Source: a bacterium (lineage in GTDB: Bacteria > SZUA-182 > DTGQ01). Taken from it: a stretch of DNA of 11,092 nt. Shown in pieces: positions 27 through 11,023 of the stretch; the stretch's first letter is position 1, and each line of letters opens with the position of its first letter. Location of the stretch: contig JBFLZW010000039.1 in the NCBI GenBank assembly GCA_040755755.1, forward strand, positions 1-11,092. The letters run 5' to 3'. The translations under genes were made by a program, and so were the position numbers. The notes beneath the pieces were generated by a model, which was not told where the DNA came from, made no database searches, and saw nothing but the letters and a program-made list of their open reading frames with translations.

Positions 27-54
27 CTCTGCGTCTCTGCGTCTCTGCGGGAGA
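27..54 (+). repeat. Left copy of 28-bp outer inverted repeat
   Basis: This 28-bp stretch is built from tandem GCGTCTCT units and ends in GCGGGAGA. Its reverse complement occurs at 10996-11023 with one mismatch (27/28 identical by eye). The inner tandem structure (CTCTGCGTCTCTGCG) resembles simple dispersed repeats seen between genes in many environmental bacterial genomes. The copy may therefore be a genome-wide dispersed repeat rather than the tip of one mobile element. It sits outside all genes, left of the HU-like gene. Confidence 0.7.
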
Positions 55-101
55 TCTTTTTTCCCTGTGTGCTTTGTGTCCTCTCTATATTATAAGCTTG
101 G

Positions 102-119
102 CTTATGTAAGTGCCATTC
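102..119 (+). repeat. Left copy of 18-bp inner inverted repeat
   Basis: CTTATGTAAGTGCCATTC is perfectly repeated in inverted orientation at 10968-10985. Locally it is embedded in small hairpins: ATAAGC/GCTTAT (92-97 with 101-106) and TAAGTG/CACTTA (108-113 with 120-125). Together with the 28-bp repeat it forms a two-part block found in opposite orientation at both ends of the window. The two parts are 47 bases apart here and 10 bases apart on the right. Confidence 0.7.
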
Positions 120-156
120 CACTTAAAAGCTTTATAGGAATCTCTTCCCAATATAT

Positions 157-1662: not shown

Positions 1663-2817
1663 CTATGGTACATCACCAACCTCCCGGAGTTTCTCTTCAA
1701 GGAATCGCTGGAGATCCTCTTTCTTGGGCAGTTCGAGTTGGTATTTGGAGACGAATAATTTATTATCTATGCCAGCGAGGGCATATTCGACGAGAGTGTG
1801 GTCCTTATGAGTGCAAAGCAGAATACCGATTGGTGGGTTGTCACCTGCGGCCATCATGTTCTTGCGGTACCAGTTTACGTAGGTGTTGAGCTGGCCGAGG
1901 TGTTCGTGCTTGAACTCATCCACCTTGAGCTCGAGTAATATATGGCACTTCAAGATGCGATGATAAAAAACCAGGTCCACAAACCCGGTGGTCTTGCCGA
2001 TGAGAATATGCTTCTGTCGCGCCTCAAAGCAGAAGCCGTGACCAAGTTCCAGCAGGAAGTCCTGTAACTTATCCAGCAAGGCATCCTCCAGATCAGACTC
2101 GCTCATAACTTCCTTTGATTTGATGCCGAGAAACTCGAAGATGTATGGGTCCCGGACGGTAAGTTTCGGCTCAGCCTGCTCCGCTCCTGACTGTACCAGT
2201 TCGGCCAATTTTTTCTTGTTGTTGGAAAGCCCGGAACGTTCATAGTAGAGGCTGGCGATCTGGCGTTTGAGTGCCCGTACAGACCAGTTGCCACGGATGC
2301 ACTCAACCTCGTAAAATGCCCGTTTAAGGGGATCATCAAGCTTGATCAGCTCGACAATATGCGTGAAAGATAACCGATCAATTAACTTCTCAGGCGGAAT
2401 GCCCAATTGTGAAGTCTCCGATCCCACAATTTGGGAGTCAGCGGCCTCCAAGACTGCCGGAAATTCGGAAATCGCCGATTTCCTTTTTTCCAGCATGCCG
2501 AATTTGGAAATCAGTGATTTCCGAATCTGGGGATATACCTCGTAGAACTGGCGGCATAGTCCCAGGTAGCGCCCCGTATAGCATTTATCTAAAGCTGCCT
2601 GTAGCGTCTGAGCCAATGTATCCAGGAGCTGCTGTCCGTACTGAGCCCGGTCCTCCCCGTTCTGTTCATACTCACGAATATAGAAGCCAATAGCCCAATT
2701 TCGCATGGTAAGGCTGATGTTGACCGCCTTGCCCGCCTGCGCGGCGCACTGCTCATGCACATCCTGAATTGCCTTAACCAGGGCACCAAAGTCCATCATC
2801 TGCAGATTATCGGCCAT
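1663..2817 (-). CDS. YhcG/DUF1016-family PD-(D/E)XK nuclease
   Basis: This 384-aa protein matches the two-domain plan of the YhcG (DUF1016) family, which is about 350-380 aa long. The N-terminal helical DUF1016_N part covers about residues 10-190, with typical phrases such as RNWAIGFYIREYEQ near 39 and FYEVYPQIR near 91. The C-terminal PD-(D/E)XK nuclease covers about 222-372. Its candidate catalytic residues are E244, D281 (in GFVDLVFYH) and E296-x-K298 (LLELKVDEF), followed by the conserved GQLNTYVNWY at 308-317. All catalytic residues are present, so the enzyme looks intact. The family is often found in defence and restriction islands; its substrate is not well established. The start ATG (2815-2817) has GGAGG nine bases upstream, and the gene lies 70 bp after the methyltransferase stop, so cotranscription is likely. 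Residues about 100-145 are a variable linker carrying repeated palindromes. Confidence 0.9.
   Translation of the reverse strand: MADNLQMMDFGALVKAIQDVHEQCAAQAGKAVNISLTMRNWAIGFYIREYEQNGEDRAQYGQQLLDTLAQTLQAALDKCYTGRYLGLCRQFYEVYPQIRKSLISKFGMLEKRKSAISEFPAVLEAADSQIVGSETSQLGIPPEKLIDRLSFTHIVELIKLDDPLKRAFYEVECIRGNWSVRALKRQIASLYYERSGLSNNKKKLAELVQSGAEQAEPKLTVRDPYIFEFLGIKSKEVMSESDLEDALLDKLQDFLLELGHGFCFEARQKHILIGKTTGFVDLVFYHRILKCHILLELKVDEFKHEHLGQLNTYVNWYRKNMMAAGDNPPIGILLCTHKDHTLVEYALAGIDNKLFVSKYQLELPKKEDLQRFLEEKLREVGDVP
2467..2526 (-). repeat. Paired GGAAATC-N3-GATTTCC hairpins inside the yhcG-like gene
   Basis: Two hairpins share the same 7-bp stem: GGAAATC-GCC-GATTTCC at 2467-2483 and GGAAATC-AGT-GATTTCC at 2506-2522. 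The second extends to 11-base arms with one mismatch (2502-2526). A third imperfect inverted repeat lies just beyond, pairing CCCAATTGTGA (2402-2412) with TCCCACAATTTGGG (2422-2435). They encode the linker around residues 98-139 of the nuclease, with recurring SKF/SEF/SQ-type residues. Linkers at this place in DUF1016 proteins commonly vary in length and sequence. Confidence 0.6.
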
Positions 2818-2887: not shown

Positions 2888-5800
2888 CTATTCACTGTCA
2901 TCATCGCAGTCTGACTGTCCGCCAGACAAGCCCATCCGGTACTTGATATCGTAATTGATGATAAAGTCCAACTCCTCCTCCGTGAACCCATAGTGCCGTG
3001 CCAGCACCCGGTCAATTTCATCGATGATGGGTTTGCAGGTGCGTGGTCGGAATTGCTCATATCTTATTGCACCGGTAATGCTATGGGATGCGGCAATGAT
3101 TTCTGCCGATTTATCGAGTTGATTCTTCAGCTTGTAGGCTGTCTTGCTCATGTCCTCGTTTCCGAAAGATTTGGGGACGGGAAAGGATTTATAATCTGAA
3201 GGATTAAAGTCCCGGCAATTAGTGCGGACTTGATAAAACCAATAAAACAGTGTGCTGTTTAAGATGCAAAAGGCTCGGTCGCGAATCATATTAGAAGCAA
3301 ACGCCATCTTGTTCTCACGGGTTGATGACGATTCCATATCGCCCCGGAAGAATTTCGGCGGGCGCGGTGTGATGGTAAACCAGCTTCCAACGCCAGTAAT
3401 CTTGTAGAATAGCTTGTGGGGTAAGTCAGTTTTCGACAACCAGCTCTCAAACCAGTCCTTGCATTGCAGCATCTTATTGATCACTCCAACCTCCATTTCG
3501 GTTGAAATTTTTGGAAAGACACCCGGCAATGTATCGACCGAAATGGTAATAAAGGCCAACCTCTGAAAGACATGTTCACGCTCTTCATTGAACCACTTGT
3601 TATAGGGAGTGACGGATAAGATAGTGGTTGGCGTCTTTGTGGCAGCCCGTTTGGCGAGAATGATGGCCAACCGCGCATGGTGCATCCCGTCGAAAAGCTT
3701 TGAGGGGCGATCATCGTAGGTCGAAGACCATACAAAGCTGGAACTTTTTAGAATGACTTCCCGGCAAGAAGCCATACGGATTGTCGAAGTGATGGGCTGC
3801 TGAACAATGAACCCGAAGCGGGAATTTTCATGCTGAAGGGCAAATGACCGCTCAGTACAAAGGGCGTAAAGGTTGCCGCAAGACTCGGTAAAGAAGTTCC
3901 GGGGGTGGTATTGGACGCTGACCTTTGAAAGCTCCACATACGGCGGATTCCCAATAATTACATCAAATCCGCCGCTGTTCATGATCCCATAAAACTCGAC
4001 AAACCAGTGAAACGGCTGATGGCTGGCCTTCCATTTGGCGAATGCCTCCTCGTAGGCCTTTTTCGTCTTGAAACTATTGGCTGCAATGCCATACTCCCCG
4101 GCAAGGTAACGGTCAAGCTCATCGTCGAGCTTCTTCAGTCGGCAGTGCAGTTCCTGTTTATCCTCATGGGTGACCTTGCCGCCGTAAATAGTCTGCTGTG
4201 CGCGGAACTGTTGGAATGCGCGCTTGATGAGCTCGACGTCCTCCTCAAACCGGCGATAGACGGCTTCGGAATCACCGAGCATGAGCCTCATTTGCCCGCC
4301 AGCTTCCTGCTTGAAAGCCTTACGTGCCTGCTTATCGGTGGCATAGCCGATAAGAGTATTTCCAGCGCGGATATTAAAGTCTATATCAGGCAGGGGCTCG
4401 ATTTGCTCCACCGCCTCGACTTGGGCGACCAGTTTAAGGAAAAGCCGGAGCTTGCAGATTTCGACCGCTTCTTCCATAATGTCCACACCGAAGAGATTGT
4501 TGATAATGATGGATTTGAGGATAAAGTAGCGCTCGTTGGGATGTTTGGCGATTTGTGCCAGAACTTTCTTGAAGTCGCTGTACTTGAGATTTTTCGTGGC
4601 ATGGGCATCCTGCCCATGAATAGCAGATGATACAACTGTGGCTGCAGGTTTCACGGGCGGGACGCCCGTGAAACAATTACCAGTACCCACCCAGCGCCAG
4701 TTTGACAAGCCGGCACCGTCTGGATTTTGGAGAACGTATTCCACTTGCTTGTAAAAGTCTTTCTCGTCGCGGATGAGATGGTCATAATACTCGGACTGCC
4801 ACAACTCGCCGCTGCGTCCGAGCAGACGATTGATCTCCTTGGAAGTGTAGGACTTCCAGGAGTGGAGAATAGCAGGCAAGTCATGCCCCTGAGTAGGGGT
4901 CAACACAACATGCACGTGGTTTGGCATGATACACCAGGCTATGAGGTAGTAGCGCTGGCCGTCGAAATGCCGCAGCGCGTTTTCGACTATCGCTGCCACA
5001 CGTTCATCGCGCAGGCAGCAGCAACCCTGACCGCGATCAAGCCATGCCTCGATCTTTTGGGAGTGAAGGCTGGCCAGACGATGGCGTTCGCTATCGCTTA
5101 ACGTGCGTCCCGATTGTGCGGCGGTCTTGACGATATTCTCCCGCTCGAACAGCCATTCCTTAAGCACTGTGGCTGGCAGCGAGTCGAATAGACGGAAAGT
5201 AACAGCATAAGTGGCGCCTTCCTGGGTCCAATGCGGCAGGTAGGCACCTTGACGGCAAATGAGAGTGGCATGGGCATCCTGCCCATGAATAACAGATGGT
5301 ATCACTGTGGCGGCATGCTTCACGGGCGGGACGCCCGTGCCATTATTTGTATCACTACCCATGCCAGTGCCTATGTCATTATCCACATCCTCGATAAAGC
5401 GCTCCATGCGTTCGAGGCAATCGCTGTACAGGGTTTCCAGGATGCGCAGGGCAGCGAAGAGAAACGCGCCAGAGCCGCAGGTGGGATCCAGGATAGTGAC
5501 CTTTTCAATGGCCTGCCAGAAAGCACGGAGCATTTCAGGGCTCTCGGTATTGAGGATAGCATCGCGGGCAAACTGCCAGATGTCCAGGTTCAGGGTAATC
5601 AGGTCATTGATAGTGTGGACCTCGCCAGCTCGGAGTTTTTGGCGCAGTTCCAGACAGCGCTGGCGCCGTGCGACATGCTCGCGCCATATCTCGGTGGGAA
5701 GTGCGTAAGAGTCATCAGCGGGTTTATTCCAGCCGCTGCGCTGAGAAACGTCCTGAATGCCTGCTTCAATTTCTTGCGGCAACTCAATTACGTTGCCTTC

Positions 5801-7003
5801 TTCGTCAACTACCCCATATCGCATGGCCGGATAGATGTAGCGGTCGGGATTATCGGCCAGCAGGCGCCAGAGGAAGCCATCTTTTTTGAAAATTGCAGGG
5901 CATTTTTTCTCGGCAGCATCAAAAAGGAATGGGATAATGGTATTCTTGCTGATGTATTCGGTAATGTCTTCTTTGGTATAGTAAGCCCCCATTTGTTTTT
6001 GGTTGATATACTTCTCGAAAATATAGCCAACCACATCCGGGTTGATCTCGTTATCGGCACGCAGGGGCCGCTCATCCAGGTGCCAGGAATATTGGTCGAA
6101 AAAGTCGAAGAGTTTCTCAAATGCCTTGTCCGGAATATCGATACTGGAGTTTCGCTCTTCAATCTGGTGAACCTCGAAAAAACCGCCATCGAGGAAGGGA
6201 ACCTTGCCCAGGAGTTTTTCGAGATCAGCGTCAATTTTGCGGTCTTCAGGGGACTTGCCCAAACCTTCGTGGAAGAGGCGCAACAGGAAATAGCGGTAAA
6301 ATGACTGGAACTTGTCCTTGCCTTTGGCCTCTTGGACCATCTGAAGACGATTACGCAAGTAGTCGATATCGCCATCGAGAAAGCCCTTCTTCTGGATGAA
6401 ATAGACGAACATAAGGCGGTTGAGCATGAGGGACGTGTACCACTGGAGGTCAGCATCTTCTTTAATGCCCTTGATGAGTTTGAGGAAAGCGGTGTGCTCG
6501 GCCTTGAAGCGATCATAAAATCTTTTGGTAATCCTGTCTACGTCGAAGGCGGCCCGGGCTCGGCCAGCCACATCCACAATGGTGATATTTTCCTCCTCGT
6601 CAAGGCTGATGGCGATCTGTTCGAGCCGCTGGATGAGCCGGTCACCGGATTGATGCACATCGAAGTGGTGGTCCCGGCTGGACATGGGTTTTCCGGGCTC
6701 ACGGCGGACCCACTGCCAGACCTGCCTGCCAGAAGGCTGGTCGGCATAGATCACGAAATGTTCGCGAACGGATTTGGTGATCTGGTGATCAATCTTGAGG
6801 CGTGTAGACCGGTCGGGAATGGAATCGCAGATAAAAGCCACAAAGCCTCGTTTCTGGGCGATAGTGGCCAGGCGGATGCTGCTGCCATCTACGGGGATAT
6901 CGATCTGGCTTTGGTAATTATCCCAGCCCAGATGCTCGCGGAAGAGTGTGTTGAAGTCGAAGGACTTGAGACATTCCCTCACTTGGGCAAAATCTATCTT
7001 CAT
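2888..7003 (-). CDS. Eco57I-type DNA adenine methyltransferase with in-frame RAYT insertion
   Basis: This 1371-aa protein is an N6-adenine DNA methyltransferase of the Eco57I/type IIG class interrupted by a transposase domain. An N-terminal region (about 1-180, with VWQWVRREPG near 95) leads to a helical methyltransferase part (YYTKEDITEYISKNTIIPF near 341). Motif I is DPTCGSGAF at 506-514 (S-adenosylmethionine binding) and motif IV is NPPY at 1019-1022 (target adenine). Residues about 820-870 (FGVDIMEEAVEICKLRLFLKL) resume the fold. The probable target-recognition region runs about 1040-1290. Residues 555-803 are a RAYT with flanking repeats, read in frame; without them the enzyme would be about 1122 aa. 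I see no clear PD-(D/E)XK nuclease motif in the N-terminus, so cleavage probably depends on the helicase/PLD partner. ATG (7001-7003) follows the helicase stop by three bases, with GGAGAG upstream inside the helicase gene, indicating translational coupling. Whether the interrupted enzyme is active cannot be seen. Confidence 0.9.
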   Translation of the reverse strand: MKIDFAQVRECLKSFDFNTLFREHLGWDNYQSQIDIPVDGSSIRLATIAQKRGFVAFICDSIPDRSTRLKIDHQITKSVREHFVIYADQPSGRQVWQWVRREPGKPMSSRDHHFDVHQSGDRLIQRLEQIAISLDEEENITIVDVAGRARAAFDVDRITKRFYDRFKAEHTAFLKLIKGIKEDADLQWYTSLMLNRLMFVYFIQKKGFLDGDIDYLRNRLQMVQEAKGKDKFQSFYRYFLLRLFHEGLGKSPEDRKIDADLEKLLGKVPFLDGGFFEVHQIEERNSSIDIPDKAFEKLFDFFDQYSWHLDERPLRADNEINPDVVGYIFEKYINQKQMGAYYTKEDITEYISKNTIIPFLFDAAEKKCPAIFKKDGFLWRLLADNPDRYIYPAMRYGVVDEEGNVIELPQEIEAGIQDVSQRSGWNKPADDSYALPTEIWREHVARRQRCLELRQKLRAGEVHTINDLITLNLDIWQFARDAILNTESPEMLRAFWQAIEKVTILDPTCGSGAFLFAALRILETLYSDCLERMERFIEDVDNDIGTGMGSDTNNGTGVPPVKHAATVIPSVIHGQDAHATLICRQGAYLPHWTQEGATYAVTFRLFDSLPATVLKEWLFERENIVKTAAQSGRTLSDSERHRLASLHSQKIEAWLDRGQGCCCLRDERVAAIVENALRHFDGQRYYLIAWCIMPNHVHVVLTPTQGHDLPAILHSWKSYTSKEINRLLGRSGELWQSEYYDHLIRDEKDFYKQVEYVLQNPDGAGLSNWRWVGTGNCFTGVPPVKPAATVVSSAIHGQDAHATKNLKYSDFKKVLAQIAKHPNERYFILKSIIINNLFGVDIMEEAVEICKLRLFLKLVAQVEAVEQIEPLPDIDFNIRAGNTLIGYATDKQARKAFKQEAGGQMRLMLGDSEAVYRRFEEDVELIKRAFQQFRAQQTIYGGKVTHEDKQELHCRLKKLDDELDRYLAGEYGIAANSFKTKKAYEEAFAKWKASHQPFHWFVEFYGIMNSGGFDVIIGNPPYVELSKVSVQYHPRNFFTESCGNLYALCTERSFALQHENSRFGFIVQQPITSTIRMASCREVILKSSSFVWSSTYDDRPSKLFDGMHHARLAIILAKRAATKTPTTILSVTPYNKWFNEEREHVFQRLAFITISVDTLPGVFPKISTEMEVGVINKMLQCKDWFESWLSKTDLPHKLFYKITGVGSWFTITPRPPKFFRGDMESSSTRENKMAFASNMIRDRAFCILNSTLFYWFYQVRTNCRDFNPSDYKSFPVPKSFGNEDMSKTAYKLKNQLDKSAEIIAASHSITGAIRYEQFRPRTCKPIIDEIDRVLARHYGFTEEELDFIINYDIKYRMGLSGGQSDCDDDSE
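4596..4670 (-). repeat. REP-like 75-bp repeat, downstream copy
   Basis: This copy is identical to 5265-5339 at 68 of 75 positions and in the same orientation. It contains two GC-rich hairpins: ATGGGCATCCTGCCCAT (4601-4617) and CACGGGCGGGACGCCCGTG (4652-4670). The latter extends to 11-bp arms at 4649-4673 (TTT/AAA flanks). All seven differences fall between the hairpins, which are themselves identical in both copies. It is translated as residues about 778-803, ending HGQDAHAT. Confidence 0.9.
5265..5339 (-). repeat. REP-like 75-bp repeat, upstream copy
   Basis: This is the second copy of the 75-bp unit, on the methyltransferase-motif-I side of the RAYT. Hairpins lie at 5270-5286 (ATGGGCATCCTGCCCAT) and 5321-5339 (CACGGGCGGGACGCCCGTG). 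It is read in the same frame as the other copy and encodes residues about 555-580, again ending HGQDAHAT. The two-hairpin layout resembles bacterial interspersed mosaic elements (paired REPs). Confidence 0.9.
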
Positions 7004-7006
7004 AGT

Positions 7007-10000
7007 TTAGTTCTCTCCATCAGGTTTAGCCAAGCCCATCGAACAGATGACCTGCGGTTCGGTCGACTCTTCATCTTCTGAAACCCGGCACAGGCGACCA
7101 TCCTGGCGGAGTGAAATCACCAGTTCGGCCAGTGCCTCATTGGTGATACCGCTCTTGAGTTGTCGGTTTAGTATGTCGATGGCTGATTGGAGCAACGGGT
7201 ACTTATAAATGTCTTCAATGGCTTTCATCAGTTCGGGCATGGCAGAAAAAAGTATGCCCTTGCAGTTGTCCGTATAGGTTTTGAGCCGCTCGTAGGTGCG
7301 AAACCTCGCGCCGGATGGCCGACCAAGCTGACCGCCCACGGATTTCCCTGTCTCGATGATCAGTTTCACGCCCTGGGCGACCATAGCATGGTGCTGCTCA
7401 TGGCGGGGCAGTGCTGGTGTATCCGGCAGGCATTCGGCTGCTTTCAGAATGGCGAACTGTGATTCGGTGACACTCCTGCCTGCCTTGTCAATCCATGCCA
7501 GAGCGTCATGGCCTGTTGTGGTTCGCAGATAAACCAGCGTTCCTTCCGGCTGGTCATGAGTAGGCTGGTAAGGCCGGGTGGAGTAGACCACATTCGGCAA
7601 AGCCGTGATGACCTTTTCCAGTTTCGGGTCCTGATCAATGGCGTTCTTCCATATCTGGTAGGCATAGGAGGCCAGGTCCACTTCAGTATCATCATCGCCG
7701 TCCAGAATGCCGGACTTTTCATTGTAGATATCGATTAACGGGAGGTCATCCTTTTCATCATCGAAAAACGCCTCGTCTGTACCGACAACCTCGGCGTTCT
7801 CCCGCAGGCGCTGACGTACGCGGCTGCGAAGGCGAATAATGCGCTCAACTCCATCAGCAGGCAGAAAGGAATAGCAGAGGATGCTGTCAGCCTTTTGCCC
7901 GATACGGTCTACGCGGCCAGCGCGCTGGATCAGGCGGATAATAGCCCAGGGCAGATCGTAATTGACAATGATGGCGCAATCCTGGAGGTTCTGTCCTTCG
8001 CTCAAAACGTCGGTCGCCAGCACGATGCGAAGTTCATCGCTGGCCGAGACCTTATCGCGCTTATTGTTGCTAACGGGGCTAAACCGGCAGGCGATGGCCG
8101 TGGGGTCAGCGCTATCGCCCGTGACACCCGCAACTGCGGCAATTCCACGGCCTTTGAGCTGGCTCTCGAGGTAATTCACTGTGTCAGCGAATTGGGTGAA
8201 GATAAGAACCTTATCTTGTGGATGTTGCTTTGCCAGCAGGTTTATAAGCGCATGGAGTTTCTCATCCCGGTCAGGGTCCCACGGCCCGGCTAAAGTCAAA
8301 ACGCTCATCAGTGCATTGGCATCATTGCGGAGATCCTTAGCCAATGCATTGCCAAAGAGATCTGCCCGCAGCCACTTGAAACGCCTCCGGAAATGCGATG
8401 CATACATATTGTAAACCCCGGCGGCACGCCGGGCAAAGTCATCCTCGGTGAGCGCTTGGCCGACCTGGCGGATCGGGTCACTTGTGCTGTCGTCATCCTC
8501 ATCGCCAGCCGGATTCCACAAATCACTGTCTTCATCAGTGGCCCAAGTGTCGAGAAGCCCGATGTCCTGAGTACCGATAGGCAGCAGCAGGTCATTCTCG
8601 ATGGCATGCAGGAAGATGTAGTTACGGAGAATATGCCGTTCCAAAGACAGAATGAAGGCATGGCCGCTGCTCTCCAGCCGTTTGAAAAGGTTGGTGCGGC
8701 AGAATCCTTTGAGGTGTGAACCAGCCCGTGAAAGGTCAGCCAGTATTTTAGCTTCATCCGGTGCTGGCGGTTTGTGGGGAGTAGGTTTCTGGTAATTGCC
8801 CAAACCGTACCGGGGCAAAGCGAGATGGTTGACTGTATTTACTACATTATCTGCAAAAAGGCGGGCGTACTGATCTTTTTTATCTCCTGGATTGATCACG
8901 AACTTGACAGTTTTAGGGACACGGGTCGGGAAATATGATCTGGTGCCGTCGATGAATTCGAGACACTTGCGATTGCAGGCCGGATCGAGTTTTGCGTAGT
9001 TTCCCTGGATAAAGCTGCGGGTGCGGCGTACGAGGTATAACCTCATCAGGTCACGCCAGTCATCGGCATACTCGCTCTTCTCGAATGCTGCCAGTGACCT
9101 CACGGGACACTGGTGGCGACGGATAAACTCCGTCTCTCCAAGTTCACGAAGCAACCGCTCAGGCCGAACACCGATGTCCTCCTGCTCGTCGATAAAGAGG
9201 CGGAGCTGATTCGAGAGGTCGATATACGTCTTATTGTAGGGCGTGGCGGACAGCAATATCACCCGGCTGTCATTAGAGCTGATGTAATCCGCAATAAAGC
9301 GGTATCGTTTGCCTTCGCGATTGCGGAGGTTATGGCTCTCGTCAATGAGTACAAGCCGGTAACGGGGCAGATCGGGCAACTCCCGTTGAACATTGGTAAT
9401 CGATAATACCTTGGCACGAAGTCGATACTGCTGACGGTAATCCTCCCACATCGAAACAAGGTTTTTGGGACAGATGATCAATGTCTCCACTCCGTGGTCA
9501 TCCTCGAAGATGCGGGCGAGCGCGGTAGCCATTAATGTTTTCCCAAGCCCCACAACATCGCCGATCATGACACCCCCACGTTTATTCAGGTGATGGGCGG
9601 CGATCTTCACCGCAGCCTTCTGGAACTCGAACAGGGTATCGCCAAAGTCACTGGGGATGCGGAATTCAGTCAGTCCGGCGCGTGCCTCCTGGGAAAGGTG
9701 ATAGGCCATTTTCACATAGATATGATATGGCGGGATCGGCTCCGGACGCGCCCAACTGCTATTGATGATCTCGACGAGTTCCTTTGAAATGTCCAGGCAA
9801 AACCGGTCATTCCATCGCTTCTCGAACCACTGGGCAAGCTTATCGCAGGCGTCATGGTCGAGCACGTCTATGTTAAGCTCACCCTGCTTGCATAAGCCCG
9901 CAAGGGTAAGATTGCTGCTGCCCAGATAGCCGATTTTGGGGTTGATGGGATCTTGTCGAAAGAGCAGGTATAATTTGGCGTGAAGAGGGTACCGCAGGAA

Positions 10001-10396
10001 CAGCTTGACCACCAGTTTGTTAGCAGTAATCTGGTTAGCCAGCCGGCGGAGCCCTGCTTCATCCTCGTTGGTCGGAATGCCGATCATGAGCTGATCTCGG
10101 AAATCCTGGGCGAGTCTTCTCTTCAGTACAAGAGCTGTACCTTGATCGATCTGATCCTGGCCTGGCAGTAGACTCATCACAGAACGAAGCTGATCCTGGG
10201 GCATCTGCTGCATACCAACCAGAAGCCTGCAGCAATGGCCGACACCGCCTTGCCACTTCTCGACCAGCTCATCAACCAGCCGCCATCCTCGAAGATTAAA
10301 ATACCCAACGCAAAAGTCAGCCCGTTCGGACAATCCCATTGCTTCTGAAAGAGCAGTCAGAAGATGATTATCGATGTTATCAAATACCTGGGGCAT
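7007..10396 (-). CDS. PLD-nuclease / SNF2-like helicase fusion protein
   Basis: This 1129-aa protein joins a PLD-like nuclease to a superfamily 2 helicase. The PLD part (about 1-200) has H139-x-K141 (LHAKLYLL), then GSSNLT at 159-164 with N162, and E173. This is the H-x-K...N...E pattern of PLD endonucleases; the classical HKD Asp is absent. Helicase motifs are Walker A DVVGLGKT (280-287), DESH (352-355), SAT (383-385), IFTQF (732-736), ATDVLSEGQNL (794-804) and QRAGRVDRIGQ (824-834), which is SNF2/RapA-like. Residues 900-1129 are unassigned. Expected role: ATP-driven translocation on dsDNA coupled to cleavage, guided by the downstream methyltransferase. The start ATG (10394-10396) has AGGAGG six bases upstream, a strong ribosome site. 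It overlaps nothing and is first in the operon. Related architectures occur in NgoAVII/CglI-type ATP-dependent restriction systems and DISARM- or Mokosh-like defence sets, but the gene set here does not match those as I know them. Confidence 0.92.
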   Translation of the reverse strand: MPQVFDNIDNHLLTALSEAMGLSERADFCVGYFNLRGWRLVDELVEKWQGGVGHCCRLLVGMQQMPQDQLRSVMSLLPGQDQIDQGTALVLKRRLAQDFRDQLMIGIPTNEDEAGLRRLANQITANKLVVKLFLRYPLHAKLYLLFRQDPINPKIGYLGSSNLTLAGLCKQGELNIDVLDHDACDKLAQWFEKRWNDRFCLDISKELVEIINSSWARPEPIPPYHIYVKMAYHLSQEARAGLTEFRIPSDFGDTLFEFQKAAVKIAAHHLNKRGGVMIGDVVGLGKTLMATALARIFEDDHGVETLIICPKNLVSMWEDYRQQYRLRAKVLSITNVQRELPDLPRYRLVLIDESHNLRNREGKRYRFIADYISSNDSRVILLSATPYNKTYIDLSNQLRLFIDEQEDIGVRPERLLRELGETEFIRRHQCPVRSLAAFEKSEYADDWRDLMRLYLVRRTRSFIQGNYAKLDPACNRKCLEFIDGTRSYFPTRVPKTVKFVINPGDKKDQYARLFADNVVNTVNHLALPRYGLGNYQKPTPHKPPAPDEAKILADLSRAGSHLKGFCRTNLFKRLESSGHAFILSLERHILRNYIFLHAIENDLLLPIGTQDIGLLDTWATDEDSDLWNPAGDEDDDSTSDPIRQVGQALTEDDFARRAAGVYNMYASHFRRRFKWLRADLFGNALAKDLRNDANALMSVLTLAGPWDPDRDEKLHALINLLAKQHPQDKVLIFTQFADTVNYLESQLKGRGIAAVAGVTGDSADPTAIACRFSPVSNNKRDKVSASDELRIVLATDVLSEGQNLQDCAIIVNYDLPWAIIRLIQRAGRVDRIGQKADSILCYSFLPADGVERIIRLRSRVRQRLRENAEVVGTDEAFFDDEKDDLPLIDIYNEKSGILDGDDDTEVDLASYAYQIWKNAIDQDPKLEKVITALPNVVYSTRPYQPTHDQPEGTLVYLRTTTGHDALAWIDKAGRSVTESQFAILKAAECLPDTPALPRHEQHHAMVAQGVKLIIETGKSVGGQLGRPSGARFRTYERLKTYTDNCKGILFSAMPELMKAIEDIYKYPLLQSAIDILNRQLKSGITNEALAELVISLRQDGRLCRVSEDEESTEPQVICSMGLAKPDGEN

Positions 10397-10716: not shown

Positions 10717-10967
10717 GCGCTTTTCCCGGAGGGGACATCATTACGTAACAACGCTTGCCGAGATTTCTCCTGTCCTGCTGTCCCCCGGAGTGCTTCCAGG
10801 GCTCTGGGAAGGAGCAGAAACAACCATGCTTCGGGAGGTGGTGAGCATCTACCTTCTGCTGAGATTATTATAAGATCCAGATATCTGGTGGGTATTCCAA
10901 AAAACATTCAATTGAGGTAAAGGATCGGGAAAAATAGGGCAGAAGGAGCGATTTTCGGCCTTAATCT

Positions 10968-10985
10968 GAATGGCACTTACATAAG
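10968..10985 (-). repeat. Right copy of 18-bp inner inverted repeat
   Basis: This is the exact reverse complement of 102-119. Similarity weakens but continues inward for a few more bases (TTAA shared after three differing positions). It abuts a perfect short palindrome AGAATTA-G-TAATTCT (10984-10998). Confidence 0.7.
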
Positions 10986-10995
10986 AATTAGTAAT

Positions 10996-11023
10996 TCTCC
11001 CGCAGAGACGCTGAGACGCAGAG
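10996..11023 (-). repeat. Right copy of 28-bp outer inverted repeat
   Basis: This is the reverse complement of 27-54 with one mismatch. It lies 10 bases outside the 18-bp inner repeat, so both ends have the same order (28-mer outside, 18-mer inside) in mirrored orientation. The two 28-mers enclose about 10.9 kb containing all five genes. Confidence 0.7.

Follow-up and report, generated by a model that had tools for sequence, protein, structure and literature searches.

A complete RAYT transposase with REP-type ends is open in frame within a type IIG-like methyltransferase gene, and relatives lie inside other host proteins

A whole RAYT transposase flanked by two REP-type repeats is read in frame within a type IIG-like restriction enzyme/adenine methyltransferase gene of the stretch of DNA analysed here (the window, 11,092 nucleotides), which constitutes an entire contig of a 5.26 Mb genome in 88 contigs. 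Relatives of this transposase are embedded in many proteins, sole copies of essential enzymes among them, so that it has the appearance of a mobile element which persists by being translated within its hosts instead of disrupting them. We put at roughly 78% the probability that RAYT-REP elements persist in this manner, as translated guest domains carried on REP-encoded linkers and made together with the host protein.

The host ORF occupies positions 2888 to 7003 on the minus strand and encodes 1371 aa. As an earlier note on this DNA had read it, a single open frame passes from methyltransferase motif I through a repeat, the RAYT and a second repeat to the NPPY motif, running from 7003 down to 2888. 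The PADLOC profile PDLC03628 (REase_MTase_IIG) matched the ORF with 1144 bits, split over two stretches that correspond to both outer parts of the protein, and the Pfam families Eco57I and MmeI_Mtase were detected in the same outer parts, with the Eco57I profile covering aa 835–1090. Motif I (DPTCGSGAF, aa 506–514, positions 5462–5488, minus strand), aligned with four insert-free homologues, lies 5′ of the insert, and motif IV (NPPY, aa 1019–1022, positions 3938–3949, minus strand), read from the sequence, lies 3′ of it. With motifs I and IV on a single chain and the whole-family profile matched, the host was assigned as type IIG-like. Its surroundings look like a defence island; the neighbours of the host are a YhcG/DUF1016 nuclease gene (window 1663–2817), a gene for a 1129-aa PLD-SNF2 helicase (7007–10396) and a DprA-like gene (785–1423). 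The same sequences were found in inverted orientation at both contig ends (window 27–126 and 10961–11023; 28 nt at 96% and 25 nt at 88%), and the contig therefore stops at repeats.

Alignment to insert-free methyltransferases, which the earlier note had proposed, revealed the empty site. Four homologues of 1087–1166 aa (L085–L088), compared as insert-free members of the type IIG family, aligned on both sides of the window insert and had at that point a loop about 10 residues long (in one case LVRSGEKHRPEKFADF). In place of this loop the window protein has extra sequence at about aa 543–806 (positions 4586–5377, minus strand, with boundaries good to a few residues), slightly wider than the 4596–5339 given in the earlier note, an extent that does hold for the repeats. 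Comparable empty sites were observed for other hosts. A CarB host (L243) aligned to residues 1–487 and 488–1070 of E. coli CarB with 249 residues in between, leaving a clean empty site between 487 and 488, and residues 757–985 of a MetH host (L125), 229 in all, corresponded to about 3 residues in relatives of around 80% identity.

The RAYT domain itself (aa 589–775, positions 4679–5239, minus strand) was recognised by Pfam, NF047646, the solved structure 4er8, AF2 and Foldseek. It contains LPHW, the HUH motif as HVH at 696–698, the catalytic Tyr756, and Asn760 at the Tyr+4 position, residues whose role in RAYTs has been described (PMC6006769). The NF047646 model (REP_Tyr_transpos, cut-off 80) scored 85.3 bits on the inserted segment and 80.3 on the whole ORF, and Pfam Y1_Tnp matched the domain as well. 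The RAYT of known structure, 4er8, was a sequence match with an E value of 1.3e-6 and the top Foldseek match of the modelled domain. Motifs, NF047646, PDLC03628 and Pfam thus agree with the earlier note that HVH and Tyr are intact and that both parent domains look intact. Of the structure modelling that the note had also proposed, the guest part succeeded: in an AF2 model of aa 430–1110 the RAYT domain was confident (pLDDT 80–98 over most 10-residue blocks) and the flanking linkers fell below 50, with the methyltransferase part poor and uninformative because the alignment was shallow, few homologues having been supplied. An AF2 model of a FabZ-RAYT protein (L109) gave a confident RAYT domain and a weak FabZ half.

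The two REP-type units that bound the transposase are each 25 codons long and each form two hairpins with a GTGG head on the plus strand. The upstream unit (positions 5265–5339, minus strand) reads TGVPPVKHAATVIPSVIHGQDAHA and the downstream unit (positions 4596–4670, minus strand) reads TGVPPVKPAATVVSSAIHGQDAHA; they are direct repeats of 75 bp, 91% identical, with a start-to-start distance of 669 bp, and both 75 and 669 are divisible by three. In the host frame both are read as TGVPPV...HGQDAHA with no stop, and one other minus-strand frame is closed by a stop. The earlier note's claim that 744 bp had entered with the frame kept holds up, since no stop interrupts the stretch 4596–5339 in the frame used, against 7 in either of the other two minus-strand frames. 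At the level of the DNA sequence, both repeats and the RAYT are thus open in frame, with unit lengths that are multiples of three, host halves that align and residues that are kept. Hairpins of this type, with the GT(A/G)G head, occur at four further sites in the same genome (G000), far below the more than 100 usual for REPs. These four copies of the GGCATGGGCATCCTGCCCATG hairpin (C6:19457, C22:10800, C22:128688 and C79:251) lie outside recognisable genes; downstream of the hairpin all four share a conserved tail containing CCCTTTAAAAAGCTTAATCTCT or a slight variation on it. No REP-only coding insertion was found in G000, all other copies of the window REP being outside recognisable genes.

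A RAYT with REP-type ends would accordingly have entered a loop of the type IIG-like methyltransferase gene in the orientation and frame of the host. The gene would be translated as one long protein, with the RAYT as a separately folded domain on flexible REP-encoded linkers; the host enzyme probably still works, and the single-strand nicking of the guest may be retained. As the guest retains the residues for cutting REP hairpins in ssDNA, mobilisation of REPs or of the guest itself may still occur. For the window host, essentiality is no argument for function, since the gene is dispensable and comes from a metagenome-assembled genome.

Relatives suggest that the clade of the window RAYT often lives inside host proteins. 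With four RAYTs as queries we scanned 84,980 named genomes (alignment A2 taking the place of the eight-sequence A1, whose diversity was too great) and took the best 80 loci. Among the 78 usable RAYT relatives of these best 80 loci, 42 were embedded in frame with long extensions on both sides. Hosts for all 42 were assigned by HMM matches for representatives, by reading of the flanks and by comparing same-family flanks with blastp; for most, a partner from the same family matched both flanks. The hosts comprised ValS (6), MetH (9), IspG (4), FabZ (3), AlaS (2), TsaC (1), a DinG-type helicase (1), HsdR (2), DUF1156 methylases (5) and type IIG or other methyltransferases (9). We discarded the idea that methyltransferases are specially favoured, since 16 of the 42 hosts are restriction or methylation enzymes and the others are not. 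In 288 evenly drawn Verrucomicrobiota genomes, frames of at least 430 aa made up 52 of the 150 matches among those listed, adding LeuS, CarB, PriA, HypF, XseA, NspC and RarA as hosts; long frames in this sample that extend solely upstream of the RAYT (for example L220, L222 and L248) may be due to chance, and no host is claimed for them. The corresponding figure for 199 evenly drawn Planctomycetota genomes was 17 of 65 full-length matches among those listed. Collections of plasmids and phages yielded distant stand-alone relatives only, or none. The earlier note had called a RAYT fusion within a restriction-type methyltransferase unusual; for insertions of this kind that is right for the literature searched and wrong for genomes of Verrucomicrobiota and Planctomycetota.

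Some of these hosts are the sole copy found of an essential gene. In three Planctomycetota genomes (G145, G146 and G148) the RAYT-bearing frame was the only valS over the cut-off, and lesser matches scored like paralogous synthetases. The RAYT-bearing copy was likewise the only ispG found in four Verrucomicrobiota genomes and the only leuS over the cut-off in four genomes of the same phylum. A missed second host copy is unlikely as a general explanation because the genomes agree, drafts though they are. ValS and LeuS are indispensable, and the interrupted genes must therefore yield a working protein, either fused or processed. The note's suggestion of a tolerated, intein-like guest without splicing is in this respect well supported and extends more broadly than proposed, with RAYT relatives in frame in single-copy essential genes. 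One LeuS frame with a RAYT (L226, in G394:C9) reaches 2175 aa, about 1100 aa beyond the usual end of LeuS.

As long-frame searches detect in-frame cases only, in-frame placement is partly built into these counts, and free RAYTs served as a control. Around 10 of the 28 free RAYTs with enough flank lay between oppositely oriented neighbours; five pairs of same-strand neighbours proved by Pfam to be different genes, each with its own complete domains, and no split gene was found at those of the 28 copies that were looked at. This control argues against a pure detection effect.

Embedded copies have kept their catalytic residues (HxH in 42 of 42, the Tyr+4 Asn in 41 of 42). Of 95 embedded or long-frame cases, 90 have a pair of repeats across the insert. 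Codon-position variation in embedded RAYTs follows a purifying-selection pattern, and two unsaturated pairs from ValS gave dN/dS values of 0.11 (dS 0.73) and 0.20 (dS 0.76), dS being saturated for most other pairs, those of the window RAYT among them. In a quick tree with many weak forks, same-site guests of MetH, of IspG and of ValS, and the guests of HsdR, each formed one group, consistent with a single insertion that was then inherited in each case. In the same tree, weak forks included, type IIG guests fell by starred branches into at least five separate origins, with the window RAYT standing alone. The position of the RAYT in methyltransferase hosts also varies: it precedes the catalytic motifs, lies between them or follows them.

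In the 35 codons preceding the domain, an ATG was present in 10 of 42 embedded copies versus 21 of 36 free ones (Fisher p=0.0026). Any possible start (ATG, GTG or TTG) within the same distance was present in 27 of 42 versus 33 of 36, which makes reliance on translation of the host a tendency and not a rule. Frame-keeping insertions may survive because they cost little and are expressed whenever the host protein is, often without a nearby ATG of their own, and in essential genes the guest would not easily be lost by frameshift. Taking this further, it is about an even bet that the RAYT-REP lineage has settled in protein-coding sequence as a niche. Its units would have evolved to stay open in the frame of the host and lost their own start, would lodge in loops of essential and other proteins, be expressed only therein and remain active for long periods; a cell's sole ValS, LeuS or IspG would then also be a transposase.

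The kept catalytic residues and the purifying selection on the guests would also be expected of a domesticated fusion, in which the single-strand nicking of the RAYT HUH domain serves the host, in restriction or DNA repair for example, and is maintained by selection on that account. Long vertical retention in the MetH, IspG and ValS groups and the frequency of nucleic-acid enzymes among hosts point the same way. However, FabZ, IspG, MetH, CarB and NspC have no DNA role, the insert is absent from close relatives, and the position of the guest relative to the motifs varies among methyltransferases, all of which make domestication improbable, although it is the strongest of the competing explanations. 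The earlier note's version, a nuclease adding nicking to the enzyme, found no specific support, given guests also in tRNA synthetases, MetH, IspG, FabZ and CarB and the separate origins and varied positions of type IIG guests.

Tolerance in essential enzymes would also be accounted for if the guest were removed before the host works, whether by protein splicing or cleavage or by excision at the DNA or RNA level as in IStrons, and IS200-type transposases are capable of precise excision. Against this, no intein or Hint family was detected in any scanned host (Pfam, NCBIfam), no intron or ribozyme match was found in the window (Rfam), and removal at the DNA or RNA level needs no open frame across both repeats; we regard guest removal as distinctly unlikely. 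Slightly lower still we rank an ordinary insertion that disabled a dispensable restriction gene, reads open by chance and has left nothing functional. The window host is indeed a restriction-modification gene, and a RAYT-bearing type IIG gene related to it (L022/L082, in G062:C5) is decaying, but 1371 stop-free codons, intact motifs and lengths in multiples of three speak against it, as does the same arrangement in single-copy essential genes. The G062 gene has lost its motif I region and carries a frameshift downstream, and some embedded copies therefore decay. An assembly or binning chimera, which a single short contig ending in inverted repeats might suggest, is very improbable, as in-frame RAYTs with repeats occur in dozens of independent assemblies, some deep within contigs of more than 200 kb (e.g. 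G394), a recurrence that excludes an assembly artefact for the arrangement in general.

Translated guest domains on REP-encoded linkers, the reading we prefer, were compared with several known systems. RAYT/TnpA_REP proteins and REPtrons such as E. coli TnpA_REP (PDB 4er8) have been described as stand-alone genes (PMC2817692, PMC6006769). The window RAYT resembles them in its HUH motif, single Tyr, Asn at +4 and flanking REP-type hairpins with a GTGG head, and TnpA_REP is its best structural match; it differs in being embedded in frame within a 1371-aa ORF and not stand-alone. In-frame REPs and Rickettsia palindromic elements are read through in host proteins, with tRNA synthetases and repair genes among them, as inserts of about 20–82 aa with no transposase (PMC3733652). 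Both window units are likewise palindromic repeats translated within an ORF, whereas the window insert adds a whole transposase between two of them. In-frame REPs were thus known before, and the new part is the whole RAYT in frame in its hosts, for which no earlier description was found in the open literature searched, subscription papers and preprints being outside it. Inteins with homing endonucleases are similar in that a mobile nuclease domain sits in frame within essential proteins. They are usually located in conserved active-site motifs, and RAYT guests differ from them in occupying variable loops, in single-strand HUH chemistry and in having no splicing domain, no Hint domain being detected in the window ORF (Pfam, NCBIfam). 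IStrons and IS200/IS605 elements have in common with it the Y1 HUH transposase family, but the window has no Rfam match to a group I intron and no TnpB, and the frame is kept.

A 2018 survey of the transposase family discarded unexpectedly long proteins as fusions or annotation errors (PMC6006769), and our counts suggest that long RAYT proteins set aside in this way form a genuine class that is widespread in Verrucomicrobiota and Planctomycetota. An insertion element could survive in a gene without breaking it, as a domain translated within an essential protein, and tRNA synthetases and metabolic enzymes provide natural examples of tolerated large domain insertions. The entry of REPs into coding sequence becomes a directly testable question. 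Within one frame of a DUF1156 methylase from a Methylococcaceae MAG (L149:3883–8175), two RAYT domains were detected as two Y1_Tnp stretches. In another DUF1156 methylase (L157:5206–9261), tandem REP-derived peptides flank the RAYT, with GTQAARPHPSP present about five times, which points to repeat expansion within coding sequence.
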